This document shows, piece by piece, positions 530 to 49,847 of a DNA stretch of 64,000 bases. A model generated the notes under the pieces. The model did no database searches and was not told the DNA's origin. It was given only the letters and a program-made list of their open reading frames with translations. The position numbers and the translations under genes were made by a program. The DNA is from Plumapathes pennacea (lineage: Eukaryota > Cnidaria > Anthozoa > Antipatharia > Myriopathidae), in assembly GCA_964036295.1 (NCBI GenBank), contig OZ038470.1, forward strand, positions 601,001 to 665,000. Reading direction: 5' to 3'. Each line of letters opens with the position of its first letter. Position 1 is the stretch's first letter.

Positions 530-3282
530 AAGGAAACGAACAGCGGAGAAAAGCGAAACAGCGAAACAGAAAAGGATGACGACGAAAACACACGCTCCGC
601 TGACCAGCCGTGCCATGAAAACGAGGTACGTATTCCAAACTTTCTGTGGATCATACGTGTACGCATGCGCGGTGACATCACGCCAAAAGAAAGGGAGATC
701 ACGTGTAAAATCACGTGTGAACTACGTGGAAGAAATTCATCACGTTAATCTCTGGTTAAATAAACCAGCAGTCTGGCTTTCAGGGACCAGCATGCCATTA
801 TTTATTCTTTTGTCTAGCAGTTTTTCGGGCGTAAGGCAATGGAGTAAACGAAAAAAACAAAGAAATGTAAAGGGGAATATCTTTTGTTTTTTTTTTTTTT
901 TTTTTCGTTTGCTTTTTTTTTTTGTACATCCTTTCAGCCCTTTAAATTGAGTTTGACTATTCTTCTTTAGGGCGCCTTGTCAAGCAAGACCACATCAGAT
1001 GACGTAAAACTCGAGGAGAACAGCGGGAAGGAGCCAATTAGAAACGAGACAGACGTTGAAGGAGAGCACGAGACAGGACTGGGGACTAGACAGGATGAAA
1101 GCGAGGTTTGTGAACCGCGTTGTTTGATTAGGACAGTGGAACGGAAAGAGTGTGAGACAGAAACAACGCCAGAGACAGACAAATACAGAGACAGAGCGAC
1201 AAAAAAACAATACTTTATACCTGATAGACCAAGATATTATTGAAACAGCTTCTGTTGTCTCCCCTTTTAGCAGCAGACAACACAACGTTTGTTTCATTCT
1301 CTCTGCAGACAAATCCTCATCAGACTGGAAGCGAGGCTGGTGAGGATTCAACGCAAAGCAGAGCAAATAATCACACCGAAACCGAGAAGCGTGACGTCAC
1401 AAGCGGTGTGTCATCTCGAAAGGCTCGCCGTACAGTCTCAGTAGACTCAGTAGACTTCGTGCGCGACAGACCAAGCAGTTTCACAGAGGCTCAGACTCAC
1501 GGCAGACGCAGGCATTACACTGCGTTTGGCGGGGCCGACATTGCAAAGGAACTCGGAAGACTGGGTGTCGCGAGCATCCGGGAACGCACGGCGCTCAATC
1601 TTAAACGAACCTGGAGCCTGGACGCTAGAACGATGGAGAAGGCAAGTTCCACGAGCGACTTGTTTCATCTTAGGAACGATTTGCTGCCTGTCTTTTCGCG
1701 TCCTCTCGAAGGCATCACTGGAAACTCGACGATTAAAAAGACGGTGAAAAAAGTGAGCCGAGCTTTCAGTGAGACGGAAAAGGGTTCTCCACCAGATTGG
1801 ACGTTTTCCGTCCCGTCTCAGGAAAACGCTGACGCTGAAGCTGCCAAAGAGATCCCTAGTCCAGATAACGCGCTTGGTTCAAGTTCCAGTCCAGAGGAAG
1901 GATCTCACGGCAGTTTGGAAAATATTCTCGCGTCGGTTGAGCGTGATATTGATGAGACGAGGCGGACGATCAACAACGCGCAGCTTTTGGAGTCCGCTTT
2001 ACGTCTTAAGAACAACCCGAGCAAGACGGAGCCACCGAGTGAATTGAGCAAGCATTCAACAGAATTGATGAACATGAAACTTCGAGCAATGGAACGCATG
2101 AAGAAGCACAGAGAGCGGATGTTAGAAACGACCAGAAAAAGCGAATTTTTCCGCCCAAAAGAGTTCTTACTGGAGCCTGCCGAGAGCGCGGAGGTTTCAG
2201 ATTCGCGGGAAAACTCGCGAGAGGATCCGCGGGCTGCGAGAGAATACGACATGTTCCAGCAGATGTTGGAGACGGCAAACAAACGCTCGTCCGAATTGCA
2301 GCGCATTCACAACACTACTCTAGAGAAGATGAAAAAACGCAAGGAACAACTTGGAGAATGCACGAGGCAAGATCGCCACCAGAAGGCGAGATCAAGTTCG
2401 GAAAAGTTTAGTCACGTCAAACAAGGAAGGTCAACGAAGGTTATTGACTTTTCGCTCTCCTCTTTTGAGCGGAAGTCAGTCTCGGTTGCAGAGAATGAGA
2501 CAAGAAATCCACAGACGAATGATATTGTGACGGAGAATGACCATTTCTCGATAAGTAACGCAGAGTTGCTCTCGGAGCCGCTCAAATCTCGCAAACGCCT
2601 CATTGATATTTTTGTCGAAGAGAAAGACAGCAATGTGACCGATTATTTTTCGCCTCAAACCGCTGTCGAAGCAGCAATGGACGAGTGGACAGGTTCTTTG
2701 GCTCAAAACGCTGCCGAAGCACCAATTGACGATTGGACAGGTTCTTTGGCTCAAAACGCTGCCGTGGAAGAGCGATGGCCGATTACGCCTCAAAGATGGG
2801 AGCTTCCCAACGTACGCAACATAGCAAGACAGTTTTCAAAGATAATTCACGATCAGGAACAAGTTTCCGAGATTCGAAAGCATGCGCAAGAGGTGAAGTC
2901 TGCTGACAGCCTAAAAATCGACTCCAGTCCTACGGTGCACATTGAGCGCGTTACCAAGGTAACGCTCGAGAGCTGCCCAAGCGGTCCGAACGCGGAAACG
3001 AGGCTTGTGCGAAGACGTCGGAAACCGCGACGTCACAAATTCGGTGATACTCGGCGATCAAGCTGGTCATGTGACCAGGACGAGACCAAGACCAAGGGAA
3101 CGTCTGGGAAAGAAATGAGACCCAAAAGTGTGTTCGTGCGGCAGCCCCCGGCAGTAAAGGTCATTGAGCAGTCGGAAGATAACGAAAGTGCGGAATCCAA
3201 GAGAATCGACGAGAAGGAGAAAGAAGACGTCGTGATCGAGGGACTTGTGCAGCATTTGGTGAATATGTTTGAGCGTTCCTGA
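530..3282 (+). CDS. Unrecognised disordered/coiled-coil protein, 3' part (5' end outside window)
   Basis: I do not recognise this protein. Three exons join in phase 0: 530-625, 971-1105 and 1309-3282 (TGA at 3280-3282). GT and AG borders are visible at 626, 970, 1106 and 1308. No start codon with a good context lies upstream in the window, so earlier exons are probably missing. The visible 734 residues are rich in Ser, Glu, Lys and Arg and look mostly disordered. Short charged helical stretches, for example around 2047-2130 and 2230-2370, could form coiled coils. A 16-residue segment ending in WTGSLAQNA occurs twice (2662-2757). The C-terminus is a short amphipathic segment ending LVNMFERS. 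The gene lies 1.7 kb upstream of CENP-F on the same strand and has its own stop codon, so I treat it as separate. Splice phases make the exon chain fairly sure; function is unknown. Confidence 0.7.
2662..2757 (+). repeat. Coding tandem duplication, 48 bp x 2
   Basis: Two adjacent 48-bp units (2662-2709 and 2710-2757) encode two 16-residue copies that differ at a few positions in the first half and are identical over the last half (WTGSLAQN). It is a recent in-frame duplication inside the unrecognised gene. Confidence 0.85.
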
Positions 3283-4687
3283 GTAGGGTTAAAGGGTCTA
3301 TTCGCACTGAACCGGCAAAGCGTTACTATGACAACTGCGTGTCACAGCTAAGAACACACTACAACTCAAGTATCGGAACACACAAACAAACAAATCGTAC
3401 AAGTGTCACGTCGCGTTCGGTGTAAATAGCCCATCCCAAGGTGAACTTACTTCTGCAACAATGACATCGCGTGCAGTTACCACCTGACTTTTCACGTTCA
3501 GTGTGAAGAAGCCGTTAGCCTGATAGGATCGTTACATTGAGTTTATATATGTTGAAATCGTTTGGTATATTTTCTTTGCGATGTAAATATACAGTGTAGT
3601 TAGAGGTGTACAGGTGCAGTATATTTACCAGTAGGGGTATAGTATGTGGGTGTAAGGTTTTGTAAATGTTTATTCAAAGCTAAAGTTGTAGTTTTTTCTT
3701 TCTTCATAATCTAAAGATGCTTATATTGTTTTTGATACACAAGTATTTTTTTGAGAACGCTCGTTAGATTTTGTACTCTGTATATCTGTATATAATTAAT
3801 TTGAAGTTGATTTTCAAAGTCGCTCTGTCGCTTGCTGAAATGTATGTTTGCGAGAAAAGCGGTTGATGGATGACGGTCTTAGGATGAAAAGTCATCCTAA
3901 GACCGCTCGAGTGTCGCTTCTCTGCTTTACGTATGATGAATAGCTTGGAGATACCAAATAGAAGATATTTTAATGATTATATTCAAAGCAATCTATATAA
4001 AACAACCAAAATTTAGTGGTAGTTTGTTAGAAATCCAGATGTGGTCTGTTAACATATATTTGTACATTATATTTTGCTATAAACCTGTGAGCTAAACTAG
4101 GTGAACAAGTAAGTTTGCAGTAAGCACTAGAGAAAGATTTTGGAATTAACCGTGGATTAGCTTGATCGAATTTTGAACAACTGGGATCTAATTTTCAGAA
4201 CGTCAAAATAAGATTGACTACATTTTGGTAGTCACATCCGGCGCCATCAAATCTTTGCAGTTTTTTTTTTTTTTTTTTTTTTTTTTTTGTTGCAATGCCT
4301 TTTTTGTGAAAGAGACAATTGTTTTGGACAAAAACAGCTACTAATTAAATGGACATTAAACTTTGTTTTTAGAGGCCGTTTCCTTTCTCTTTCATGCATT
4401 TGTGACTGTCTCTGGTCTTGTCCTTTCTGGTCTTTTTTGACTATCTCTGGTCTTGCGGGGTTCATGAACTAAAAGCAATTGGGCTGTTCTGTCTGTTTCT
4501 ATTTTTAGTCTTTCTGTGTAGCAAAGAGAAAACAAATACTGAAGTTGTTGAAACAAGCAAGGAAACATGATTACTATGTTGCAAGTATGCTGTGGTTTTC
4601 AAATTGGATACAATTCGTGAAAATAATTTTCAAATTATATTTGCAAATAAACTTTTCACGGTCCCTTTAGTCGATCGTGTGCGAGTG
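3283..4687. other. 3' UTR and intergenic gap, no gene seen
   Basis: AT-rich sequence after the stop codon of the first gene. It contains a strong hairpin (3852-3922) and a run of about 28 T at 4261-4288. I see no coding exon. Confidence 0.6.
3852..3922. repeat. Hairpin with perfect 14-bp inner stem
   Basis: Positions 3874-3887 pair perfectly with 3892-3905 around a 4-nt loop. The flanks (3852-3861 and 3915-3922) pair again with a small bulge, giving an interrupted foldback of about 70 nt. It lies in or just after the 3' UTR of the preceding gene. It could be a pre-miRNA-like foldback or a short inverted-repeat element. Confidence 0.7.
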
Positions 4688-4973
4688 AAAAAATGAACGT
4701 TTCGATCTCGTTCCATTTCCACTCGTATCCAATCTCGGAGTCGTTAATAAAAAGGCTGGGTCGAGTATCCGCCATTTTGAACTCGACGCTTATTGTGCGA
4801 TTAACCAATCAGAGGCACGAACGCGCCATATTTAATTTTCAAAGGCACGAGACGCAAAGTGAGTGGAAGTTGTTGTCTTTACATTCTTGTTCTTCGTTTT
4901 TTGGGGGGGCGAATTTGTGTTAGTTTAGGGGATCAGATCGTTCCTTGCGATCTCTAAGTTCCTCACTGATACA
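4688..4973 (+). promoter_or_regulatory. CENP-F promoter and 5' UTR with CHR-like and CCAAT motifs
   Basis: The 290 bp upstream of the CENP-F start contain TTTGAA at 4776-4781, CCAAT at 4805-4809, a CGCGCC block at 4822-4827 and an inverted TTTGAA at 4838-4843. TTTGAA (CHR), CCAAT and E2F-like GC blocks are the usual parts of late cell-cycle promoters, including those of vertebrate centromere genes. The motifs are short, so function is inferred from grouping and from the identity of the gene. Confidence 0.45.
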
Positions 4974-21524
<16,551 letters not shown>

Positions 21525-22511: not shown

Positions 22512-22748
22512 TTAGTTCGCTGCCAGTCTCTTCTCGTGATTGCTCAGGATCGTCTCCAGTCTTTCAAGCAGTCGCTCTGCCCGGCTCACTCTGAGCGGCA
22601 GCTCAGCAACAGCCGGCGCGCCCGCGTCTTCCCGCGCATTTGCAAACTCCATTTCCCGCCGACCGAGACGGAAGTGGCCCTCGGTCACGTGGGCTAACAA
22701 TACCACAGACAAACAAAGGAGGAGGACGATAGATTTGTACTGTTGCAT
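22512..22748 (-). CDS. Small secreted precursor, candidate HFRL-amide neuropeptide
   Basis: This 78-aa protein is read from ATG at 22748-22746 to TAA at 22514-22512. A TTTTCTTACAG acceptor lies 11 bases before the ATG, so the 5' UTR is split by an intron. Residues 1-24 form a signal peptide (hydrophobic core IVLLLCLSVVLL, likely cleavage after TEG). Directly after it comes H25-F-R-L-G-R-R31: a short peptide, an amidation Gly and a dibasic cleavage site. The remaining 47 residues are charged, probably helical and contain no cysteine. Two other genes in this window (31416-31649 and 32681-32977) share only the signal peptide and H-[FL]-[RT]-[LV]-G-[RK]. I infer a one-copy neuropeptide or hormone precursor. 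No family name is recognised, and it may instead be another secreted protein. Confidence 0.7.
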   Translation of the reverse strand: MQQYKSIVLLLCLSVVLLAHVTEGHFRLGRREMEFANAREDAGAPAVAELPLRVSRAERLLERLETILSNHEKRLAAN

Positions 22749-25700
22749 ATTTAACGTACCTGTAAGAAAAGAAAGACAATGAAAGTGCATTCGAATTTCT
22801 TTCTGTACAAATGTTGGTTTTTATTTGCTGACAATGGCCAGCTGCCGAAAGCAGCCACTTTTTCACAACCGTCTGCCAAGTAGGCCGGCTAGTTCTATTT
22901 TTCTTTGTACTTAGGCTTATATCCGTGAAAACAGGTTTTGACCAGCGAACAAATGCGAAGTCTAGGTCAAACTCCGGCTAAAAGCCTTAGTGTTCTGACT
23001 CAAAGCAGAAATGAAGCAGTGTTTTCCCGCCCGCATCGTCGACGACCAAACTGCGAGATGTCGGTGAAAGAAACGTTTAAAGTTTCTTTTCTTTTAGATA
23101 TAATCCTGATTTAGCCTAAGGATGGTAAACATATCAAGGGAAAACAGGTTTATAGATTGAATTCGAATATCTCGAGTGTCGTCCTGATACGTTTTGAAGT
23201 CGTCTAACAGATCGAAAGTATGCGCAGAAAAGTAACCGAGTTCTTTTTTTTTTAACAGTTTCGTTTCTTCCTTCAGATGCGTGGGTGGGTTTCGTTTGAG
23301 CCGCTACCTTAAGGCGGGTTTGCCTTCACAATTTATCATTTGTTTAGGATAGGATATAGATAAAAATACACAGAGCAACAAGCTTCAATTTTTGCGATGA
23401 GCTGTCGGAAGTCCGATATTGGTTTGAGGCGGATAAGTTAGACTAGATGAACATAGATCACTAAAATGATACACGAAATTATCAAACCACTCTCTGCAAA
23501 AACGACAGATTTCCAAACAGGAGTCATGAGCTGTGACATGATATACTATCTGCGAGATATGGAACAACTGTTTGTGATCGAACTTCCTTAAGTGGGTAGA
23601 AGGCGAAATATTTGAAAAGTTCGTCGAAAAATAGCTTGGTAACGTGCGAGAAAGCAATGCAAAAGTTGGTATAATTAAAAAGTTATATTGACAACACTGA
23701 TATCCCAAACTTAACTTATACAGTCACATTTGAAGTGTTTACCAAGGCAAGTGCCATGTAGAGTTGTTCAGGGATAGTCTTTAGGAAGACTTAACACCAA
23801 GACCAGTATTAGGGCAAGGACAACGTTTTAGTTTGGAACACTTACGTTGAGAGTTGCTTTCCAAGTGTGAGGCGACTTAGTTTGAGGACAAAGTGTAACT
23901 GAGCGATAACAGAAGAGTACGCCTTTATCAATACAGATTCCGGAACAAACCTACGCGTGTTATCTCCGTAGCATTTTAGCCGCAAACAATAGTTGTGCGC
24001 TACTTCCTATTGTTCAGGCGAGGTTATATTATATTTAAGCCATAATTATAAAGCGCGCAGAATGGAGCAGGTGAAATCAGGGAAACGTGGCAGAGGTAAC
24101 TGCAAAATACGCCGTTTGTTTGCACTTCTAATTACGTTTCTTTTCTACAACATTTGTGTAAACAGTCCCGGAGTAGCTGCTTAATAATGAACTTGTCGGC
24201 TTCAGGCGGTTTAGAAAAGCGGTTATTGCATAAAATTTAGTCGCTGTTCTTTGTTTTTAAAGGATTTTTAGTCAATCTTTACATTATTGTCGTGGGTGCG
24301 AGTTCGTCACAAAGTTAATTCCTATTTCCAAGCCTTTTCAATGTTGCCATGTGTTTTCTATAAATGTTCCATGATAACACCCCACTCAAAAGTTGTTATT
24401 GAGTGCACTTTCTCGAAGCTCGTCAGACTACTTATCCAACTTCGTAAATATCCGCTGCCTGCGTTTATTGCTGAGTTGAGTTGATTTAATTGTGAAATAA
24501 GAGAGTACATGATCGATTAGTGGCATCGCTTCTTTGTTAAAGCACTACCAAGTAATAAAACCGACATTGAGTTACGTTTGAGCCTGTCAGGGAAAATATT
24601 AAAACACATCAAATGACGCACTATTCCTTGTGAAGAGAATAGCAAGTTGGGGACCTTATGAACTGAATCAGGCAAATTAAATCATTCTCATTACGAAAGA
24701 AAAACACGAGGAGAGAAAGTTTCCCCCCCAGTTGTAGTCAGGAAAAATAATTGGGGGAAAGTGCATGTCAAACCTCCAACTTCCAAGAAATTGTACTCGT
24801 TCTTGTTTATTGCTCGAAGTCTGATGATTCTGCCGGGATAGTTTACACATTCAGAAGTGATTATTATTTTTTTCAACAACACTCCCTCCCTTGTTTTTCT
24901 ATGAATGTCTTCTTCCTTCACAGTGGTCTTTTATTTGGTGCCGCGAAGGCACACTTTGGGGGGTGTTCAACCTAGAGCAAGTCTCGTTTAGGATTTCATC
25001 CATCTTTACAAACAAAATGATAAGTTTCTTTTTGTATTGCTTTGCATCCGTCGGTATCAAAGTGCTTCGTGTTCGCCGTGCATCGTTGTTTGTTCAGTTA
25101 GAAATGGAGCTACTTTATTGCAAATCTTGCGAAACTGTATACCTTGTCGGTGCCACCCGAAGAAATACTAATAAAGAAATAATATGAAAGGGATCTGCTT
25201 AAATACAGTGGATTATAAGCTTTATTTAAGATATATACTTTGGGCGCAAAAACTTTGCTTCTTTGATCATGTGTGGGTTTTTATTTTTTGTCGATTTACC
25301 TTCTGCGATGGAAACACGGAATATCAAAAACTAAACATCCCTGAAAAGACTAATCAAATTCTGTTTCCGTTTGAGTAAGAAAGCGGCAACCTACTGACGC
25401 GAAGCGTTTATGGGAATTACATGCAGCGGCTTATTTGACACGAATAAACTCAAACAACCAAATGTTTATTATTTTCTCCAACATCACCGGAAAACTCAAG
25501 GGCTTACTTTGTTGTTTTGACACTTTTAGAGTGTCTCACTTTACATAATTAAGTCAGAAAGACTACTAAACCCATAAGCTGTGGTAATTAGTTGACGAAA
25601 AAAGAACTTACTTTGCGAAACGAAACGCAGTCTGTTCATTCGAAATGTTTTCTTTTTTTGGAGCGAGTTTTCAAAGCGACATGGGATTTTTAAAGGCGAA

Positions 25701-26186
25701 GTCTGTAAGAAAGCATTGCATCGAAAACACCTGCTTAATCAGGAGTTGATCATATGAAATCAGCTTAACGGAATCGAGAACAAATTTAGGAAATGTTAAT
25801 AATACCAGTATTCGCCACATGTGGAGATAATAAAAAAACATCCGTGCGCAAATATTACTCTTTTCTTTTTACAGAAAAAAGGTGCGCTTATATGAAAGGC
25901 CCAGCCATATTGAGTTGTTGAAGTCTCGCGGACTAGGCTGACTTCTAGCCATTACATTTCTTGCAGATATCGAAAGGCTGATTCTGTATTTGTTATGATT
26001 TTTTATCTCAAGAGACTCGAAATCAGGATTGATCTGCTCTTACCTTGAAGTTGGTCGCGTGAATTAGTCGGTTAAATAGATAAGATTGCTAATGCAGATT
26101 TGTTCGCCTGTATATGAGCTAAGCACTAGACATATGAATTATTTAATCTTGATTAAGCTGTTTAGTTCGAGTTCATAGTGCAGATT

Positions 26187-26510
26187 CTCCCAACCATTCA
26201 AGAAGAAAATGTATGAGCGATGTAGTGAGAATTTGATAATTCAATCAGCTTTCACTGATCTGAGAAAGTTATAAAAAGCCATGCAAGTTATCCGAGCGTG
26301 CAACATAGCAAAATCAATAATTGTACAGAACAGAAAATACGTCCTGATGAAGAAGAAATTTCAACTGAATAACATTAAACTATCTGAAGTTGTGTTCTAT
26401 ATTCGGGTTGTGCTAGAAAATTGAACCTCTGCATCAGAAAAGATAATCTAATTTTCATGGCTTTGTTCATTTCCATACTATGGAAATTATCTCTGGCGTG
26501 AGTAATATCA
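26187..26510 (+). repeat. Interspersed repeat copy
   Basis: ATTCTCCCAACCATTC, AAAATGTATGAGCGATGTAG and a downstream ATTATCTCTGGCGTGAG are all found in the same order near 43,389-43,525, and in part at 14,516. No inverted ends were identified, so the class is unknown. Confidence 0.55.
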
Positions 26511-27957
26511 TGGAAATGTTGCCTAGAAACTCTCTGTAAATAAACCAGAATGGTTTTGAATTATTGTTTCCGGAGTTTTTCTGACAAAACTGTTGATTAA
26601 CAACGTGATTGAGTTTACACTTTTTTGTTTTATACGTGTAAAGAGGGCTACAAACATTAAAGATGGGTTCAGTTGATATACACTCAACAGGAAAAGTAGC
26701 GATCCTACCATGGCTTACTTCGAACTATGTACGAGGGTTGTGTTTAAATAACGTTTTCTGCTCCGAGAAATACGAACAGGGAGTCGATGTCGAATTATTG
26801 CTCATGAGTAAATTCTGACCGCATTTTTCACGTTCTTGAGCTCAGTTCACGTTTTGCTTTGTTTTGGGTGTGTATTTGCTTTTAAAGTTTGGTTTGGACA
26901 GAGAATATTAAACAGGGCTAACATTTCCTGCTTTGAGCTGACTTCAAAGCTAGCGGCTTCATTTAGTTGTCGTTTGGCGCTTTCATGATCGTATATATCC
27001 CTGAATTAATTCCAAACAATCATCACTTCTCCGCATTGAACAACAGTTCAGTTTGATGGGTTGGAAAAAGTTCTCTTCCTTTCTTGGGACATAGAACGTG
27101 TGTAAGCCCGGGTTTGCAAGAACAACAATCACTAAACAAAGCATCACTTCATTCGTTTTATTTAAAAGTTCAGATTAATATAATAACAAAACAAAGCCAA
27201 GTATTTGATCTTTTTGTTCCTCGTGATCTCTGGTTGGCCCGGCCTGAATTGCACCTTTTGCTGAGGAAGAATGTTTGTGCGCCTGATATCCCTATACGAG
27301 AGAGAAATAGAAAACTTGCATTGCCTCCACCCCAAAGTTTTTTGTTTGTGTATGTGAAAAAATTTGACCAAAGGTTCTATGACAAATACATTTGCTGAAA
27401 AGCTGGCATTCTAGCTCCTTTATAACATGGATAATTTGCTACATGTAAAGTTTGCTCGTGTACACGAAAACTTGTCAAAGTTTTTCGGAAAACTTTAGTT
27501 CCCAGGTCTATATTTGCAAGCGTGTTCGTGCGGTCAAGATGGCGGCGTCCGCAAGATCGACAACTAAAGTCTTTGAATTGGTCAGATAATGAATATTTTA
27601 ATTCAAATAATAAAAATCATAACTAGAAATATGATGTTCACATTCACAAAGTATTGGAGATAATCTATTTTGTATCCACGTTATTTAGCTTTGAAATTAA
27701 TTTGAGCTCGTCATTTCACAAACCGCTTCATTTGTGTGCGCGCGGAGTTTGAGAGGTTTTTCAGAAATATTTCTTGTGTCCGCAACAAATTTTTCACGCG
27801 TGGCAAAACCGGGCAACATTTTGGGGAAACATGCGCGCGCGTTTCGCCAGGCTTTGATGCTGCGGCGTGCGCGCGCACACAAATGAAGCGATAAGTGAAA
27901 TAAATTATTCATTTATTGCTTTTGATAAGACCTGGGGCCTATTTTTCGACAGTATAG

Positions 27958-28235
27958 CCTGGTTTCCATATGATCGCCTGGATCGCTTCTGTCGTCCGCA
28001 AAACTAGTGTGGCGATCGAATCGATTATATGGAAACCATAGTCACCGGCAATCGAAGCGATTGTCGTCGCAAGGATCGCCCCGGTTCTATCTCAAACGAT
28101 CGGGGCGATAGAAATGTTTGTAAAATGGAAACCACCTCGGACGATCGAGACCATTATGTAGAAACTCTGGGCGGTCGCAGCGATTCCGGCGATCGGGCCG
28201 ATTCGGGCGATTGAAGCGATCACTTGGAAACCAGG
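27958..28235. mobile_element. MITE-like element rich in GATCG/CGATC
   Basis: Inverted ends are CCTGGTTTCCATATGATCGC (27958-27977) and the reverse complement of CCTGGTTTCCAAGTGATCGC (28216-28235). The 278-bp interior consists of degenerate CGATCG-type units and several TGGAAACC blocks. No coding capacity. Target-site duplication is not clear. Confidence 0.75.
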
Positions 28236-28444
28236 TTCATGAGCCCGCGCTAAGACAATTTCGTTGCCAATCTCGGGCGACTCCATTATAATTTAGCGAT
28301 TTCAATGTGAACGGGCTCTTGATTACACCTTCAGGTGCTTAAACCAGCTCACTTTGCTTTCACCTAAAGCTTCTGGTTTTACATTTCATTAAAAGAGCTT
28401 GTCATCTCAAAGGAAGGGGACACTTACTGGTCACAACAGCCGAA

Positions 28445-28474
28445 CCGACAAGAAATTTCAATAGTTCTTGTCGG
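28445..28474. repeat. Perfect 10-bp inverted repeat
   Basis: CCGACAAGAA, a 10-nt loop, then TTCTTGTCGG. The left arm recurs near 28820 (AACCGACAAGAAC), so it may be part of a larger degenerate element. Confidence 0.6.
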
Positions 28475-29240
28475 CCACTTGAGAAAAACAGGAACTGCCA
28501 CATGATTGTTTCGCGTTTTAATAAAATTTAAACAACGACGATGGTTTTGTTCAATAACATAAAAGTTGTTTCGGACTTTAAACCAAGAATAACTTTACCT
28601 GGATTTAGATTTTGTCTAAGGAACTATAACCTTTTTTAAAGTGCGTTCGATGTTATAAACTGCATCGGAAAATGGCTTCATACGAGTCTTCCTCTCGCTG
28701 TTTCCAACATGGACTTCTTTGTTGCTTTGTGTTGGTATAGCTTCTGTTAGTTTTTTTTCTCTGTTTGATTATTTCAGCGATTATTTAACCGGAAAATTGC
28801 CCAATCCGCCGTTGTGAAACCGACAAGAACTTTTAACAAACATGAAACCGCTAGGGACGTGAGGTTTTCATTTCGCAGCCGGTAGCGTTTGTAGTTTTTC
28901 TCCCATTGTACTTAAAACACACGACGCGACTTTTGTATAGCTTTTGTTTTGTTCTGTTTGTGTTTCTCGTATAAAGCTTTAGGCTTAACTCAGTTAAAAG
29001 TAATAATTTGACTCAACTAAGAAGACTTCCAACTCCTGGACTGTCAGATGAAACCTGTCGGTTAGAAAATCACTTATCACTTGATTTACTACGCACGGAC
29101 AAAAGTGGAACTAGACAGCACAAAGCAAAAACTAAAACTGCGTCGTCAGGATTATAAAATTTACGAATCCGACAAAACGTATTTTTTGGTTCGTTCTTTT
29201 CGAAAGTGGGACAATTGAAAGCCGCTGGTTTCAAGTTTTG

Positions 29241-29497
29241 TAAAGACTGAGGGTCGATTTTTTAAACAAGGTTTAGACCGCGGTTAAGAAAGTCCTGGTC
29301 TAAAGAAGATTTAAACAACAGCCATGCTTAATGGACAACGGCCAAACGTTGTCTTTGTAAACTGACTCCGATCCATGTTCTAAAAATGCAATTTAACGTT
29401 TTACTAACCCTGTTTTACAGCGTCCGTTTAAACTTTAATTTAGCGATAAACCAGGTCTAAGTTAGACTTTGTTTAAAAAATCGGCCCTGAGTGATTA
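29241..29497. mobile_element. MITE-like element with TCGATTTTTTAAACAA ends
   Basis: Left end TAAAGACTGAGGGTCGATTTTTTAAACAA and the reverse complement of the right end agree over about 25 of 29 positions. The element is about 257 bp and may be bounded by TA. The interior is non-coding. Confidence 0.7.
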
Positions 29498-30910
29498 CAA
29501 GGCAGCTGTCCAATCAGAAACCAGCGCGTTTCACTGCGACGTATTGTACATTAAGTAAAAATCGGTTCAAGATCGGTTCATTCAAGACTCACTGGAGTTA
29601 GAGAATACATCGCTCATTTTTCTTGCGTGTATTGTGCAGGATGTCATTGAGAATTTTGAATAATTTACTTGTGTGTAACGTTTCTGTAGGTTCTTTTTAA
29701 TCTATATACTTCCAACGGATCGTTCAAGAAGAAGAAAAAAAACTTGTAAAAACTTAGGATTCGAATAAATATCTCACAAAAACCGTCTTTCACACACTCT
29801 TCGCCGTCCTTTTCTTTCTCTCAACTCTCTTTTACCTGTTTATTTGGCAGAAGGAACCTTGAACACTGCCTTGTTAAATTTATTTTTCACATGGCCGCGA
29901 CCAGAAAGTTGATAAAAGAAATGACATTTTCGAAAACTACGACTCGTTATTTCGGGGGATTGATTTGTTGAAGATCATAGCGTAAACATGTCAAGCAACA
30001 TTGAAAAGAAGTGCTCAGAAACTAAGTTCTTTTGCTCTCAAGAAACTTTTGCTCTTGATAAAAGATTTCAAGGCTTAATAATTAGTGTCCATGTATTGTC
30101 CCAAGGCGGCGTTCTTTCAGCCCAGTGTAACTCCTTTTCGTAGACAATGTCATATTGTGCGCTGTGGAACATGAATGAACAAAAATCAACATAGGGGCAG
30201 TGATGATCGCCTTCGTTCAATACAAGCGATGTTCTCGCTGCTTCGTTGATTTCCTTCCTCGCTGTGTATCAAGAAAACGGCCAAGAGCTTGTCAAAATCA
30301 AAGTTTGGTGACTTAAAAAGGAAACTTCCACGAACTCACTGATTATGGACATGGAATGTATAAAAGTAACAAAGACAAAAAATAGACATTTTGATACAGT
30401 AAGTTTATTAGAAAAGATATTACGGCCACATTGGATTAACAGTGGCGCCAATTTGTCAGGTAATTAGACCTCAAAAAAACTTCTATAAAATTACGTATTA
30501 CACTTCAATAGCAAATCAGCTTTCTCGTATCAGTTGCTTATGGCAAGTGTTTAGTTTGTTTTAGAAAAATGAAACAGGAAAATATTCTAAAGAAATAAAG
30601 ACGCTCAATGCACAATACAAACTTATTTCCCGGTCAGTTTTTTCGTGTTGGTTTCTGCTCTCCTTTTTGGAGAGCTTAATTTCCGTCTAAAGCTACAAAT
30701 TGGCCTCTGTGCACCCACTCATTCTAATTTAAGTGTTTGTCATCACACAGCCGACCAATATCCTGAATCTTTACAAATGTAAACAAATCCACGTCAAACA
30801 CCCGGTTATGTGTTAACAATGAACTCCGTTCAAAGTCAAGGAAATTGATTAAGTTGGCGAGTTTGTTATACGAGAATCTTTTTTTCTTCGCCTTTTGTTA
30901 AAATGAGGCT

Positions 30911-31027
30911 TATAAATACTCGAGAGAAACTTGGTCCTGGCATCATCCGAAGTCATCCGACAGAAGGAATCTGGTCCGGCACTACATCTCAGCTAAGGAA
31001 CCAAGCTACGTCTTGAGGTTCGTTTAG
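30911..31027 (+). promoter_or_regulatory. TATA box and non-coding first exon of the HLRV-peptide gene
   Basis: TATAAAT at 30911-30917 is followed by about 80 bp lacking an ATG start and then a consensus donor (TTTAG|GTAAGT, GT at 31028). The acceptor TTTTTCCAG at 31384-31392 would join this leader to the coding exon. This is the same leader-intron layout as its relatives. Confidence 0.5.
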
Positions 31028-31059
31028 GTAAGTTGGATTTGAGTAGACGCGAGAAAGAC

Positions 31060-31086
31060 AAAAAAAAAAAAAAAAAAAAAAAAAAA
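31060..31086 (+). repeat. Poly(A) tract
   Basis: About 27 A in the leader intron of the HLRV-peptide gene. Confidence 0.9.
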
Positions 31087-31415
31087 GTCGTATTGGCAGA
31101 AGTTGCTTTAATCACTGTGCTCAAGCTGGCAGTCGTAAAGCACTACTTGCTACAGTGACAACTCGGCCTATTTCGCTTTTCTTCGATTAGAGCTCTGTTC
31201 GATACTTGTGTGAATGTTCATTTTAAGATCTTAGTTTATTCAGCAATGCTATTAACAACTTCAAAAACCTGTCTTCTGACAATGCATTGTAACCGTGCAT
31301 CAACGCGGTGAGCCCTGCCTAAATTGTATGCCCAAGCATCGCGCGTACGGTGTGAATTTGATATGCTGTTTATTGTTTTTCTTTTTTTCCAGCAAGAACT
31401 CAGCCCTTGTGTATA

Positions 31416-31649
31416 ATGTACAGCTCTGGAGTATTACTACCTCTCCTGTTGGCACTCATGTTGTTTATCCACGACTCAAAAGGCCATTTGAGAGTCGGCA
31501 AAAATAAAATAGCTTGGCCAGAACTCCGTCAGCAACCAGACTATTGGAAAAGGGAAAATACGCAAACAAAACTCACAGACGAAACTTCGGAACCACAAGT
31601 TAACGATTCACGAGACAAACGCGAAAATAGTATTGCAGAAGAATGGTAG
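31416..31649 (+). CDS. Small secreted precursor, candidate HLRV-amide neuropeptide
   Basis: This 77-aa protein starts at ATG 31416-31418, 24 bases after the acceptor AG at 31391-31392, and stops at TAG 31647-31649. Residues 1-23 are a signal peptide (core VLLPLLLALMLFI, cleavage likely after SKG). It is followed at once by H24-L-R-V-G-K29, a tetrapeptide with amidation Gly and basic cleavage residue. The rest is hydrophilic, with KR pairs at 45-46 and 68-69 and no cysteine. An AATAAA lies at 31900-31905. It is convergent with the related gene at 32681-32977, about 1 kb away. The shared segment is limited to the residues after the signal peptide, which is how neuropeptide precursors usually diverge. 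The function is inferred, not known. Confidence 0.7.
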   Translation: MYSSGVLLPLLLALMLFIHDSKGHLRVGKNKIAWPELRQQPDYWKRENTQTKLTDETSEPQVNDSRDKRENSIAEEW

Positions 31650-31899
31650 ACGGCAGCATAGATAAGAAATGGACAAACTCAGCCGTATATATACTGACCA
31701 TCAGTATATCAAAATAGAAAGTGTGCGATGCAATTGACGCACTGTTTATACAGGGAAACGTTGTAATCAGTCGATATTCGTCTAAAATTTTCTGTACAGT
31801 TTGTGAATCGAGACTGTGTAGCCTCGACATTTACTCGTCTAAATACGCTGTCTTTAGGCTTACTTGCAACTGCCAATTGACAGCAGCCGCTGACCTCTC

Positions 31900-31905
31900 A
31901 ATAAA
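31900..31905 (+). terminator. Polyadenylation signal of the HLRV-peptide gene
   Basis: AATAAA 251 bp after the stop codon, followed by TG/GT-rich sequence. Confidence 0.6.
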
Positions 31906-32680
31906 TGTTTACTTGTTCATCTCCGTGTTTAATTCTTCCTGGGAGAAAATCTTATTCAGACGAACGCATAATGTGGGGTTCTTTGTCTGTCACTGTCTCT
32001 GTGACAATGCAAGGGCGGAAGAAACTCAGTGCTTATGGATCCGGCCCGATTTTCTTTTTTAAAATCTTGCAAAATGTTGACAAAAGATCAACTGAAAAGC
32101 TTACACTCTCACCGTTAATGCATTGCGCTCCCAGAAACAATCGGCGGCCATTTTCGTATCGTATCGTACGAAAGTGGCGGCTGTCGATTATTTTCGTTTC
32201 TAGTTCTTTTTCATAAACACTCCACTCTGAATACAAACGGATAATCAAACGTCTAAAGCACACTTTATTGCTTGATCGTGCCATAGTAACATTTTCAGAT
32301 AAAGAAAATGCGAAGCGGAAGGATGTTTCTGACAATTTAGGATAGCAAAGCAATGTTCTCGGGCTTGTATCTGACGCTTTGTAATGATAAAGGTAAATAT
32401 TCTCCTTTCAACCTCTAGCCACAGCTGTTAGATACAGTAAGGAGAAAACCGCATAAATCTCATTATACAACAACTTAAAATTGCTTTGAATAGATTGGGA
32501 GAATTTATAATCATTATACATCTAGAAGGTATTAAGTGAATACAACTGATATATTATAAGGGTTTGAGTTTTCATTTGAACGCTTAATCTTGTGACAGTT
32601 TGTTCAATTGGACTTCTCGTAACTGCATGTGAATCATATACATTGTTCTATTATCGAAATTAACTCTCATGTTAAAGGGT

Positions 32681-32977
32681 TTACCGACGACGCCATGCGG
32701 TCTTCATTTTCTTCTCGCTCGGCTCTTGAAGGTTTGCGTTTCTATCCGGCCCTTTGTGATTATCTTCTTGGAAGTTTGATTTGCCGCCATACAAAGAGTT
32801 TTCCCCTGTCCTTGCTTCTCTCTTTCCGGTCCAGAGTGCTGCAATGCCATTTGGTGGCTGTAGGCGCAACCTTTGCTTGGCTATGAAATTTCTCCCGACA
32901 GTTAAATGGCTCCTTGATTGATTGCAGAACAGTACCAGCACACAAAGTAGACACGTGACGGTTCTTGTATTGGCCAT
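32681..32977 (-). CDS. Small secreted precursor, candidate HLTV-amide neuropeptide
   Basis: This 98-aa protein is read from ATG at 32977-32975 to TAA at 32683-32681. A possible acceptor (TATGATTAG) lies just upstream of the ATG, but its pyrimidine tract is weak. Residues 1-23 look like a signal peptide (core CLLCVLVLFC, cleavage near QSRS). Next comes H24-L-T-V-G-R29, aligned with HLRVGK and HFRLGR of the other two precursors. The tail is basic and hydrophilic and ends WRRR. It shares the following N-x-I-A segment with the HLRV gene, so these two are the closer pair. The third position is Thr rather than Arg. Secreted peptide precursor is my inference; no family is recognised. Confidence 0.65.
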   Translation of the reverse strand: MANTRTVTCLLCVLVLFCNQSRSHLTVGRNFIAKQRLRLQPPNGIAALWTGKREARTGENSLYGGKSNFQEDNHKGPDRNANLQEPSEKKMKTAWRRR

Positions 32978-43525: not shown

Positions 43526-44214
43526 AAGGAGAAAATTAAAACTAACGAGCCGCGGGGGATTTAGCAGTTAAACCGCAGTCCCTCCTTTCTGGCCAGAGAT
43601 CGTACGCAAAAATGAACGCGCGCATACGATCTTTAACCAGAAAATCAGGGTCTGTTCATAATCTGGTAGCACAACGTGCGACAACTAAAAAGTGCTTATT
43701 GGAATTAGGGTCACAACTTTCACGTGTAAAAAGAATGGAAGCTAAGTAACCCGCAGTATGTAATGCAGTGTCCATACGGTGTTTTTGCTTTCGAATACTG
43801 CTGGGGTAAAAAAAACTCTGTTCAGCTGAGCGCTTAAAATATTCACAAGTAGTTTAAAGCTTATTCCCTTGTATTTTTGCCAACAAACTGCAGAGTTTGG
43901 GTCAAAGACTGACCATAAAATTCTTCTCAAAAATGAATCTGCTTTCAACAGCTGGTTAGTTGTGAACGTTTTTGTCGTCATTAAACAAAGTGTTTGCTCA
44001 CAAAAAAACTGTTTTGATATTATGTTTTGAGCAAGCTTTTTACTTGGCTTCAGGTCGAGAAATCTCTGTTCATACAATTCAAGCCATATTTCTCTTGTAT
44101 AGTTTGTTGTAGGAAAGTTTTGACGAGAACGTGAGGCGGAAATAAGAAGTCTTGCCTTATCAGTGGAGTGCCATCTGTTCAGCGGTTTTTATCAGGAGGG
44201 ACGTCAGTTTGGTC

Positions 44215-46217
44215 ATGTTGAGTCGCCGCAAAGACACGCCTGCACACACTTCCGCTCCGTCACTTTCTCTTGGTGAGTTATCACACACTTCCGCTCCGTC
44301 ACTTTCTCTTGGTGAGTTATCACACACTTCCGCTCCGTCACTTTCTCTTGGTGAGTTATCACACACTTCCGCTCCGTCACTTTCTCTTGGTGAGTTATTA
44401 CACACTTCCGTTCCGTCACTTTCTCTTGGTGAGTTATCACACACTTCCGCTCCGTCACTTTCTCTTGGTGAGTTATTACACACTTCCGCTCCGTCACTTT
44501 CTCTTGGTGAGTTATCACACACTTCCGCTCCGTCACTTTCTCTTGGTGAGTTATTACACACTTCCATTCCGTCACTTTCTCTTAGTGAGTTATCACACAC
44601 TTCCGTTCCGTCACTTTCTCTTGATGAGTTATCACACACTGGACGCGCCTTGACAATCACATGCGTTTTGACAACGAAAGGCGTAGCCCGAAAAAGAGAA
44701 AAGAGCTTTGTTGACTCACACTTGACACTCGCAAGCTTTAGTTATTTGTTAACACAAGAGGCAGCCCTTAAGAGTCCGATGGCACTGTTCAAGACTTGAT
44801 TCTGTTCATCCCAGGCCCTTTGCGGTGCGAAATGGCCAAGCTCACTATAGTGGCCTCGGACGAGAATGAGGAGGAAGCAGCGGTCGAGGGAGCGCAACAG
44901 CGGGTAATTTATTAACGAATACGTTACTCTAGATAACTTTCCTACAGTCCATTCACAGCTCACTACTCTGAAGAATCTTTTTTTTTTTTGCAATGTTTGA
45001 AATCGCGAAATGTTGATGTCTTCGTTGTTTCAGAAACAGCTGCAGGGACAACACAGTAAAACTCGAAGGGATACTCCAGCTGTGATAACCGACTACAAAA
45101 GACGACTCAAAGGTACGCAAGTTCAGAATACAACTTATGAGTGGATCATCCGAACGGCCCTATATGCAAGTTTTTCATCGTTTAGTCACCATAAAATAGT
45201 TGTTCACGCTGTCGCAAAGTGACTCGCCCATTTCAATATTTTGCATTTCTAAGGTGATTTCACTTATAAGGAAAATACCATCGTCGAACATGATCACGTG
45301 ACTGTCGCTCCGGGGAGGCCTGGTGCGAACGATGTCCGCAGGCTGCGACGAAAAGACACGCCAGCAGCTGGGCTTATTCCAGCGCGGTACAGAGTGACAG
45401 GTGACGAATTTGTTGTTGTTGTTTTTGGATTGTAATGGGAATTTAAAAGCTGTCTTTTTAGGTTTATCTTTGAAACGTTCCAATTTTCCAGATGTTTCCA
45501 ACTTTCGAAGAACGCCGGACCGTTCTTTTTTCTCATAGAATTACGAAGACGAAAATATGTTTCCTTTTTCGAGTCCATTCTTGTAAGCTCTGTCGTACTA
45601 AAAATGAAGTCCGTTCTTATCCAACATGGCCGACATGAAGCATGCAAAGATTTATGGAATTTTTTATCCTTGATTGTACTTTTTCGGTGCTGATTGGTCA
45701 GGCTTTCTTTATTTTTGTCTTTATACATATTTACACATGTGTACTATTGCTTTTTTAGAGGAGTCGAATTCTTTCAGTGGGAATTCCTTTCAAGAGGACG
45801 AAGAAGACGAAGAAGAGGACGAAGAGGAAAAAGAAGAAGAAGAGAGGGAGGAGATAAAGAAGGAACTCAGCAGGGAAGAAAATAAACACTACTGTCTGAA
45901 TTCCAACAAGGTAATGCAAATAGTGTTACAAAATACGTAAACCTAATTAGTTATTCACGCCATCACCATCACCACCAACATCATCACCGCTACCATCACC
46001 ATCATCATCACCATCGTCACCATAATCACCAACACCATCACCAACACCATTATCACCATCGTTATCATCACCATCATTATCACCATCTATTATTGTAAGG
46101 CTGGGCCAGCAAAGACAGGCAACTGAAATTGTCTGCCATTTGTCTCCGCACCATAGTCAGACTTATGTCAGCGAGTACGAAAACGCTCCGTTGGACCAAC
46201 TGACGCGCCGCCGCTCG
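44215..46217 (+). CDS. Unrecognised protein with RR(K)DTPA repeats, partial model
   Basis: I do not recognise this gene. Exons that join in phase: about 44215-44272 (possibly starting upstream, acceptor near 44196), 44815-44903, 45034-45112, 45254-45400, 45759-45910 and 46110-46217. The motif RRKDTPA occurs near the start, as TRRDTPA in exon 3 and as RRKDTPAAG in exon 4. Exon 5 is very acidic (Glu/Asp run, then EEREEIKKEL). Exon 6 contains YVSEYENAP and ends in RRRS. The donor of the first exon lies in the first unit of a 39-bp minisatellite whose every copy has a similar donor-like sequence. An alternative start is ATG 44832 inside exon 2. The donor after 46217 is good, but I could not find the next exon before the element at 47.2 kb, so the 3' end is unknown. 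A faint resemblance to MDM1-type repeats is not enough to name it. Confidence 0.5.
44243..44640 (+). repeat. 39-bp minisatellite, about 10 units, each with a splice-donor-like site
   Basis: Nearly identical units of CACACACTTCCGCTCCGTCA plus CTTTCTCTTGGTGAGTTAT. All three frames are open across it on both strands because 39 is a multiple of three. Most units contain TTG|GTGAGT, a good 5' splice site; the last two are mutated at that point. Confidence 0.9.
45959..46093 (+). repeat. CAC/CAT-rich microsatellite
   Basis: Degenerate (CAC)(CAT) triplets in the intron 45911-46109 of the unrecognised gene. Confidence 0.85.
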
Positions 46218-47817: not shown

Positions 47818-48150
47818 TCACTGATCAAACTTCCAAGGAAGAGTCGAAGGATTCTTTTTCTTGTGCTTTTTCTTTGCTTTCTCCTTTGGTTTGGTATCTT
47901 TCTTCTTGATGCACTCTTTGATGCATTTCATCTCGAGTTTGCGACATTTGTCATTGCATTTGTCGTCATTATGTGAACACTTTTCCGTGCACGTATTGTA
48001 TTTATCTGTGCATACCCATATACACGGATCAGTTTCTCTTCGTCTTAATGCTCTCTCGGCGCTGGAATCATGACGGGGACTGGGCGCCACCGTCCATAGA
48101 CCTGAGGCGAGTATTAAAATCGCTACCAGGCTCCCGGTGGGAAATCTCAT
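47818..48150 (-). CDS. Secreted cysteine-rich precursor A, four CxxxC units
   Basis: This 110-aa protein starts at ATG 48150-48148, 13 bases after a TGTTTCTCAG acceptor, and ends at TGA 47820-47818. Residues 1-23 form a signal peptide (core LVAILILASGLW). A short pro-region ends AERAL followed by R36-R37-R38, a likely convertase site. The mature part has eight cysteines at 43, 47, 54, 58, 65, 69, 76 and 80, a strict C-x3-C-x6 pattern repeated four times. The spacing fits cysteines on a helix or helical hairpins. A very basic Lys-rich tail follows (about 83-100). The gene at 49317-49847 has the same plan and the same AERAL pro-site. Family not recognised. Cx3C helical-hairpin folds include secreted toxins and defence peptides, but this role is only a possibility. 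Confidence 0.75.
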   Translation of the reverse strand: MRFPTGSLVAILILASGLWTVAPSPRHDSSAERALRRRETDPCIWVCTDKYNTCTEKCSHNDDKCNDKCRKLEMKCIKECIKKKDTKPKEKAKKKHKKKNPSTLPWKFDQ

Positions 48151-49316
48151 GTCAATTATTAACCTGAGAAACAAGAAGGCAATGAAGCGATTTATATATA
48201 TATATTTTTTTTGAAGGACCATATTCGTTTCGAAATGTGTTTGTTTCCAACAGCAGTAAACCATTTTGCGTTGGTTTGTTTATCGATGTTCGAAAAATCC
48301 AAAAGAAAAATATATAGGAGGACTAATTGTTATTATTTCTCTTATTTTTCAATATTTTCACACACATTGTTGTACATTTTAAACTGGTAAAGTAAAAAAA
48401 ATTTCTTTTATTGACTTTTCTCAGACTTTACTCATACTACATGGAAACCAAAATAAGCCAAACAAGGAAACCCAAATAAGCCAAACAAGGAAACCAAAAT
48501 AAATCAATCATGTTGTGCTTCTTGTTCCGGTATGACATTTTTTTTAGTGCAATACTTGATTTTGCAGCGGACCTACTCTCTTTACGGCGATGATTATGAC
48601 TTAATCTTCAGGAATAAATTGCATTGCTGGACGCATTAGCGCAGTTCAAATAGTCCAACACGCTCTTCTCTATATATATAGTAAGCTTACATGACATTGA
48701 GTGACATGTGTACATACAGACCTTGGTAAACACGTGTGCGGAGTTCAGTTGTCTGTCGGATGCCTTGCCCTTTTCGCGGTTAACTGTTTCCACTGGTTTC
48801 GAGGATCAGATTACAAAATAGGTGGTGTCTGGCATTATGAAGTTGGTCACTAGTCAAAACCTGTAGAACGATTTATTAAGTTTAATAGCCATATATTCCC
48901 ACCCGTTTCGTGCATGGCCGCCGTCTTTGTGACGAAGTGGTGACACTGACAAGGAAGAGTTCAACTGCATAGGCACGCCAATCTTACGAGCCTCGTCTTC
49001 AAATGCGGAAGAAGTCTGTTTCATCTTTCTGGCTCTTCATGCTTTTTTAAGAAACAAATGTTAAATATGAAACAAGAGAAACGGAGACAAAATAAAACAA
49101 GGGGAGGGGTGAGGGGGGACAGAAAGTCACGGTGACTAACTTCATGTTATTTATTGTCACTGCTTGTGATGTAGTCAAAGCGTTTACAAATTTATGATTT
49201 GCTTTGTGAAACTATAGAAAGCTGTTATCATATTTGGTTACTTGCAATGGAAACATTACGAGTTAAAAGTCCATCGTCGTCGACTCTTCATTCTTTTCCT
49301 CGGCTTAGTCTCCGGC
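48151..49316. other. Gap between the two cysteine-rich genes
   Basis: Probably holds the leader exon and promoter of precursor A. A CTATATATATAG block at about 48671-48682 is a TATA candidate on the minus strand. A 20-bp direct repeat of ACCAAAATAAGCCAAACAAGG type lies near 48446-48500. No other coding exon seen. Confidence 0.4.
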
Positions 49317-49847
49317 TTAGTCAAGCTCGCCCGCCAAGCACCTGCGCCTGCACCATTTGCCGCTGTACATATTTACGCACACGGACCAGCATTCCTCGTC
49401 GCCAGCGGTACAACGCTCCTGGCAGGCGTGGAGTAGCTCCTTGCAGCGCCACATACACTGATCACCAGACCTCTTGACTTGGTCTCTTTTGTTCAGGGCT
49501 CTCTCAGCTTGAGGGACATTCATAGCGGATTCAAAAAAGCTTCGCGCTTTTTTGAAAGGAAATTCGGCTTGAGGGACATCGTGGGAGATGCTAATAGTGT
49601 TCCGCGCTTTCTCAGCCTGAGGGACCCTCCTCGCGGACATTCTAATAGGGAGATCGGCTTGAGGGGCATTGATGTACCGGGTTTTCTCGGCCTGAGGGAC
49701 ATTCCTGGCTGACCTGAGGGCGTCCCATGTATGGGTTTCCGCTTGGGGACCTGGAACGTCACGGATAGTTTCGTGGGAATCGACTTGAAGAGAGGCTGAG
49801 AAAACTAGAAGACCAAGGAGAACTAAACGTCGGCCGTGCGAAATCAT
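49317..49847 (-). CDS. Secreted cysteine-rich precursor B with PQAE pro-region repeats
   Basis: This 176-aa protein starts at ATG 49847-49845, three bases after a TTTTTTCACAG acceptor. A longer frame through the acceptor is rejected. Residues 1-24 look like a signal peptide (RRLVLLGLLVFSASLQ). Residues 30-118 carry six copies of [DNR]-[VA]-P-Q-A-[ED], including one with an inserted GP. The last copy runs into AERAL-NKR and DQVKR, probable cleavage sites. The C-terminal domain has eight cysteines at 131, 135, 142, 146, 153, 157, 166 and 170: C-x3-C-x6-C-x3-C-x6-C-x3-C-x8-C-x3-C. Pattern and the shared AERAL show it is a paralog of the gene at 47818-48150, with an expanded pro-region. The repeats could themselves be released as short peptides. 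Function is not known. Confidence 0.75.
   Translation of the reverse strand: MISHGRRLVLLGLLVFSASLQVDSHETIRDVPGPQAETHTWDALRSARNVPQAEKTRYINAPQADLPIRMSARRVPQAEKARNTISISHDVPQAEFPFKKARSFFESAMNVPQAERALNKRDQVKRSGDQCMWRCKELLHACQERCTAGDEECWSVCVNMYSGKWCRRRCLAGELD

Follow-up and report, generated by a model that had tools for sequence, protein, structure and literature searches.

Three small genes of the antipatharian Plumapathes pennacea are probably single-copy neuropeptide preprohormone genes gathered in one small cluster, in which gene 1 would be a form of the HFRIamide precursor, and genes 2 and 3 would be its old local relatives carrying HLRV and HLTV. The window, i.e., the whole stretch of 64,000 nucleotides that was analysed, corresponds to C9:601001-665000 (contig OZ038470.1) of a 290-Mb assembly of 24 contigs. 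All three genes lie within 10.5 kb, with genes 1 and 2 separated by 8.8 kb and genes 2 and 3 arranged tail to tail with 1.0 kb between them (Table 1). An earlier sequence-only reading of this DNA gave the positions, strands and lengths (77-98 amino acids) of the genes and the motifs HFRLGRR, HLRVGK and HLTVGR correctly, the encoded proteins being 78, 77 and 98 amino acids long. Its assignment of the genes to neuropeptides also appears reasonable, as each shows the layout of a one-copy precursor, with a putative amidation site after a predicted signal peptide, and three such genes stand together. In the proposed scheme, the signal peptide would be removed upon entry into the endoplasmic reticulum, exposing an N-terminal His; a proprotein convertase would cut after the basic residue or residues behind the Gly, which would be converted into a C-terminal amide; and the resulting H-[FL]-[RT]-[LV]-amide would leave neural or neurosecretory cells and act on peptide G protein-coupled receptors. 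We infer the cut positions, amidation, neural expression and receptors from the sequence.

Conservation, cleavage and processing of the predicted precursors

A search of ~5.8 billion proteins, with E up to 1 for gene 1 relatives, identified two relatives of gene 1, P0001 and P0002, both of which retain HFRLGR and whose alignment backs the gene 1 start, and one relative of gene 2, P0003, which retains HLRVGK. Scans of contigs and viral contigs with the gene 1 alignment gave no relative. In all six sequences (genes 1-3 and P0001-P0003), His is the first residue of the motif and the Gly-basic site is found at the same place. Within the gene 1 group, i.e., gene 1, P0001 and P0002, LAHVTEG is invariant in 7/7 columns and HFRLGR in 5/6; elsewhere, conservation amounts to 3/17 columns over signal residues 1-17 and 1/13 in the linker. 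Gene 2 and P0003 are identical at 56/62 residues and then at only 3/15 in the last 15, a break that, judged from the two sequences, suggests a shift of frame toward the C-terminus. The early part of the precursor is conserved, in contrast to the far tail of gene 2; the tail of gene 1 is conserved in part, for which a plain spacer reading offers no explanation.

Cleavage was scored on the six sequences with a von Heijne weight matrix. By this matrix all three genes have a signal-like start, and the top-scoring cut falls directly before His in 4/6 sequences, namely gene 2, gene 3, P0001 and P0003. Behind the Gly, gene 1 and P0001 carry a dibasic GRR, and P0002, gene 2, P0003 and gene 3 each carry a single basic residue. 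The R-V-G-K of gene 2 is near the monobasic Rxx-R type, to which R-L-G-R-E of P0002 also belongs; this type of cleavage was seen by mass spectrometry in Nematostella (PMC11087051). In genes 1-3, Cys is confined to the signal peptides, which rules out a Cys-rich toxin. Pfam gives no match to any of the three proteins at E up to 1, and an Rfam scan gave none anywhere in the window.

Table 1. Coordinates of the three genes and their predicted parts, as positions in the window
Feature	Position	Strand	Remarks
Gene 1 coding sequence	22512..22748	-	78 amino acids, motif HFRLGRR
Gene 1 signal-peptide-like part, assuming the cut before His	22677..22748	-	alternative cut after residue 19
Gene 1 H-F-R-L-G-R-R	22656..22676	-	predicted HFRLamide + Gly + dibasic site
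Probable 3' splice site AG, just upstream of gene 1 ATG	22760..22761	-	by eye
Gene 2 coding sequence	31416..31649	+	77 amino acids, motif HLRVGK; relative P0003
Gene 2 H-L-R-V-G-K	31485..31502	+	predicted HLRVamide
Probable 3' splice site AG, upstream of gene 2 ATG	31391..31392	+	by eye
Gene 3 coding sequence	32681..32977	-	98 amino acids, motif HLTVGR, intact 98-codon frame
Gene 3 H-L-T-V-G-R	32891..32908	-	predicted HLTVamide; weakest processing site of the three

Relationship among the three genes

Genes 2 and 3 are reciprocal best non-self matches in the genome (E 0.096 and 0.12) and align without gaps from Met1 to Pro41. Just after the motif they are identical at 7/12 residues, a likeness reached by 4/20000 shuffles in a collinear test, and over all residues after the motif a free local alignment is not significant (1757/5000 shuffles). 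Over 42 codons, synonymous change affects 22/29 sites, and is saturated, as against 39/97 for replacement change (Fisher p 0.0012). A long DNA repeat between genes 2 and 3 was looked for, and none was found. Gene 1 beyond the motif shows no significant likeness to the other two, with 4167 and 4516 of 5000 shuffles as good. The sequence-only reading had described everything outside the motif as almost completely diverged, which holds for gene 1 versus the others but overstates the case for genes 2 and 3.

Genes 1 and 2 have in common the pattern H-x-[ST]-[EK]-G-H-[FL]-R-[LV]-G-[RK]. In collinear comparisons of gene 1 with genes 2 and 3, which had been picked for the very motif concerned, 87 and 108 of 20000 shuffles were as good over the motif, 372 and 1195 over the six residues before it, and 344 and 7832 over the twelve residues after it. 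Motif and position together suggest that gene 1 is likely a paralog of genes 2 and 3.

The cluster compared with chance expectation

In a sample of 144 kb, comprising the window and 40 kb on each side, ATG frames of 35-250 residues were counted by stop codon; 596 small frames were obtained, 27 of which pass the signal-peptide filter. Among these 27 secreted-looking frames, four have G-[KR] a short way behind an acceptable cleavage site, and three, genes 1, 2 and 3, have x4-G-[KR] exactly at such a site. Twenty Markov sequences put through the identical filter gave means of 8.55 secreted-looking frames, 0.3 with G-[KR] nearby and 0.1 with the exact x4-G-[KR]. The filter thresholds were fixed after genes 1-3 had been scored, so that their passing of the signal filter is not independent, and the count is to be read as descriptive rather than as a blind test.

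Across the genome, G-H-[FL]-[RS]-[LV]-G-[RKQ] has 21 matches versus one for the reverse-pattern control; only two, genes 1 and 2, come after a signal peptide, and many of the remainder are a repeat reading GHFSLGQ. A broader motif pattern gave 136 matches versus 105 for its reverse control, and among the matches listed, which extend to C7:13,943,179, none of the 20 checked (0/20) follows a signal peptide. Whole-protein genome searches with genes 1-3 returned only the cluster itself and one weak match, C1:11859985 (E 0.885), which adjoins a frame that is transposase-like as read from its translation. Scattered over the genome are places that read GHFSLGQ or GHLTVGK and have no signal peptide in front (L007, L008, L010, L011 and L013 among others; C1:8705735, C2:7071771 and C3:3760552); by their sequences they look repeat-borne, mimicking the motif and swelling the pattern counts.

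The three genes might be unrelated small secreted frames that happen to carry the same motif, and in keeping with this, nothing beyond the motif is common to all three. We nevertheless reject such a coincidence as extremely improbable: the motif is retained in the relatives of genes 1 and 2, three secreted-looking frames carry x4-G-[KR] in place where the Markov mean is 0.1, genes 1 and 2 are the only genome matches of the pattern that come after a signal peptide, and genes 2 and 3 find each other first in the genome.

Evidence against the precursor assignment and alternative explanations

Several observations weigh against the reading of the cluster as three precursors of amidated tetrapeptides. 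The matrix places the top cut of gene 1 and P0002 five residues earlier, at LA|HVTEGHFRL, and the cut before His takes third place in gene 1 and second place in P0002; the earlier proposal that the signal peptide ends right at His agrees with the matrix for genes 2 and 3 and is less certain for gene 1. Because LAHVTEG is invariant and signal residues 1-17 are so much less conserved, gene 1 may yield the longer product HVTEGHFRLamide from this earlier cut. P0002 reads Gly-Arg-Glu at the processing site, not a dibasic pair. Gene 3 has neither a dibasic nor an Rxx-R site and is therefore the weakest candidate, and it has no relative among the ~5.8 billion proteins; retention of the motif in homologs, which the sequence-only reading had named as a check, is seen for genes 1 and 2 and not for gene 3. 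The C-terminal helix of gene 1 is conserved, with 10/23 columns invariant, a constraint not expected of a mere spacer. The post-signal part of gene 1 is equally close to gene 2 (121/5000) and to the LRWamide precursor at L058 (116/5000), so that its paralogy leans on motif and position, and versus gene 3 it is not significant in free local alignment (4120/5000 shuffles). A 3' splice site near the ATG was dropped as a family mark because it is also present in two Cys-rich secreted genes of the window. Finally, the counterpart to which gene 1 is matched is the published description of HFRIamide.

In one alternative, which we hold to be unlikely but of real weight, amidated peptides come from gene 1 alone or from genes 1 and 2, and gene 3 is a duplicate in decay or put to another use. 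It is favored by the lack of any relative, by the change of the motif Arg to Thr together with the missing dibasic or Rxx-R site, and by a pyrimidine tract ahead of the ATG that is weak by eye. Yet the 98-codon frame of gene 3 is intact, Gly-Arg is retained at the same place, and synonymous change exceeds replacement change versus gene 2, although this is a joint measure of both genes. The conserved helix of gene 1 bears on a different explanation, in which the secreted products serve some other purpose, as peptides of the mucus, of defence or of the matrix, the conserved start serving secretion and the tail, for instance this helix, being the active part. This C-terminal stretch is indeed amphipathic (94, 71 and 257 of 5000 shuffles are as high in the three sequences of the gene 1 group), in addition to its invariant columns. 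However, such a role seems improbable given the fixed place of the Gly-basic site in all six sequences, the divergence of the last 15 residues of gene 2 from P0003, the lack of Cys outside the signal peptides and of Pfam matches, and a layout that equals that of known one-copy precursors (PMC7523074).

Comparison with known cnidarian peptide families

The sequence-only reading knew no cnidarian family of this form, a statement that is superseded by the literature: HFRIamide is in print (PMC12225738), and the hexacoral Antho-RNamide, Antho-RIamide, Antho-KAamide and RWamide precursors contain one copy, which stands immediately behind the signal sequence (PMC7523074). HFRIamide was described in 2025 from larvae of Clytia hemisphaerica, with a putative precursor composed of a signal peptide, HFRI, Gly and a dibasic site, and the precursor is stated to be conserved in Medusozoa and Anthozoa (PMC12225738). 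Gene 1 resembles it in that a predicted signal peptide is followed by H-F-R-[I/L], a Gly and two basic residues, and differs in having Leu in place of Ile. Genes 2 and 3 match the HFRI-like tetrapeptide plus Gly only in part (HLRVG and HLTVG, compared with HFRLG in gene 1) and have one basic residue after the Gly. The genes also form a cluster of three, whereas the available part of the Clytia description mentions none (PMC12225738).

Like the Antho-RIamide, Antho-RNamide and Antho-KAamide precursors, genes 1-3 carry a single predicted tetrapeptide at the end of the signal sequence, with the reservation on the gene 1 cut, and amidation is predicted. Unlike these phenyllactyl peptides, in which an N-terminal Phe becomes phenyllactyl, the predicted peptides of genes 1-3 and their three relatives begin with His. 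Phenyllactyl peptides are reported only from Actiniaria and, for RNamide, Ceriantharia, and were not found in Scleractinia, Corallimorpharia and Zoantharia, according to PMC7523074. Among the Phe-type peptides, Nematostella FYRV is close to HLRV of gene 2 (PMC7523074). The Antho-RWamide precursor likewise holds a single copy directly after the signal peptide, and its counterpart at L058 has a probable 3' splice site before the ATG (by eye); unlike genes 1-3, however, Antho-RWamide starts with Gln and ends with RWamide, and the L058 tail has a probable splice donor. Genes 1-3 end in RL, RV and TV rather than RW. They also differ from FHIRamide precursors, which contain four to ten copies ending in HIRamide, in that each holds a single copy and ends otherwise. 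HFRLamide, HLRVamide, HLTVamide, HFRL-NH2, HLRV-NH2 and imidazolelactyl had no mention in the literature searched; in the parts available, RLamide appears in PMC8638164 only as PRLamides, PMC12440616 names Hydra RIamides without sequence, and neither an HFR nor an HLR string is present in PMC13004499.

Other neuropeptide genes were sought in the same genome. The GLWamide pattern is matched 40 times, and 17 of these matches form an array at C3:23359457-23360097 with a step of 39 bases; GLWamides occur in hexacorals and ceriantharians and not in octocorals, according to PMC7523074, so that the peptide genes point to a hexacoral or ceriantharian. QG-x-RWG has four matches, and the one after a signal peptide is L058, a single-copy QGLRWG precursor. 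QS[IV]TRF has no genome match, and Q-x-TRF has eight scattered matches, forming no array, versus 17 for its control. The GFP family gave no match, and neither did its control. For FYR[IV]G, 51/56 matches were viewed and none follows a signal peptide, the other five reading FYS or ending in Gln; for FLRNG, 43/87 were viewed without a convincing gene, and the other 44 read Ser, Gln or FF variants by eye. Because the reverse-pattern controls are higher (76 versus 56 and 103 versus 87, respectively), both sets of matches are at chance level. The FLRNG match at L101 is preceded, at a distance of some twelve residues, by a hydrophobic stretch; another with hydrophobic residues upstream, L146, was rejected as a (TTG)n microsatellite. 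No convincing precursor of a Phe-type tetrapeptide was thus seen among the FYR[IV]G and FLRNG places viewed, the KAamide pattern FFKAG not having been searched.

This null result bears on whether the genes descend from anemone Phe-type precursors (Antho-RIamide, Antho-RNamide or Antho-KAamide) by replacement of Phe with His, the likeness to HFRIamide being convergent. Such a descent would agree with the lack, among the places viewed, of any FYR[IV] gene behind a signal peptide and of a convincing FLRN gene, and with the small difference between Nematostella FYRV and HLRV at the same place after the signal peptide. We consider it very unlikely, since HFRL resembles HFRI more than it does any peptide of the Phe type and HFRIamide is reported from both Medusozoa and Anthozoa (PMC12225738); the His form would therefore be old.

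Other features of the window

The two Cys-rich secreted genes noted above lie on the minus strand. The first (49317-49847) encodes a secreted-looking protein of 176 amino acids in which six copies of PQA[ED], most of them reading VPQAE, precede a Cys-rich end that contains four CxxxC pairs; it has no Pfam match at E up to 1 and could be a multi-peptide precursor. The second (47818-48264) encodes, from an inner ATG at 48150, a secreted-looking Cys-rich protein with four CxxxC pairs spaced like those of the first, of which it is probably a relative. A probable 3' splice site stands just before the ATG of each, at 48150 in the second. On the plus strand, a series of long open frames at 1633-20076, one of 2053 codons (8350-14511), reads as one huge coiled-coil protein, the Pfam matches of the last piece being only weak. 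Also on this strand, 39674-40972 matches the MYND zinc finger and 2OG-Fe(II) oxygenase in Pfam, and its product is presumably an EGLN/PHD-type prolyl hydroxylase. A minisatellite at 44160-44799 has a unit that leaves the frame open on both strands (EVCDNSPRESDGA on the minus and HTSAPSLSLGELS on the plus strand), and a long (ATG)n-type microsatellite at 15888-16175 (plus strand) gives a poly-Met frame and poly-Ile on the opposite strand.

Implications for the cnidarian tetrapeptide amides

On the evidence of its sequence, gene 1 is a probable HFRIamide-type gene, and its two clustered, diverged relatives predict two new peptides. As a speculation that we put forward with considerable doubt, HFRIamide and the anemone Phe-type peptides could be branches of one old cnidarian tetrapeptide-amide family, the His branch being kept and duplicated here (HFRL, HLRV and HLTV) and the Phe branch elaborated in anemones; the exposed His might be capped as imidazolelactyl by the Phe-capping enzyme, and the peptides might act on orthologs of the FLRNamide and FYRVamide receptors. 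In Nematostella, FLRNamide activates four receptors, one of which also answers FYRVamide at 1.1 uM (PMC11087051). The cluster supplies gene models and a three-gene arrangement for a family otherwise resting on one Clytia larval precursor in the available account (PMC12225738). The predicted HLRVamide and HLTVamide would be overlooked by pipelines that rely on repeated motifs or on an N-terminal Phe or Gln. Being tetrapeptides, the predicted products are easily synthesised for trials on receptors, muscle and larvae, and they would offer a testable answer to the absence of the one-copy anemone tetrapeptides from several other hexacoral orders, as that absence is reported in PMC7523074.

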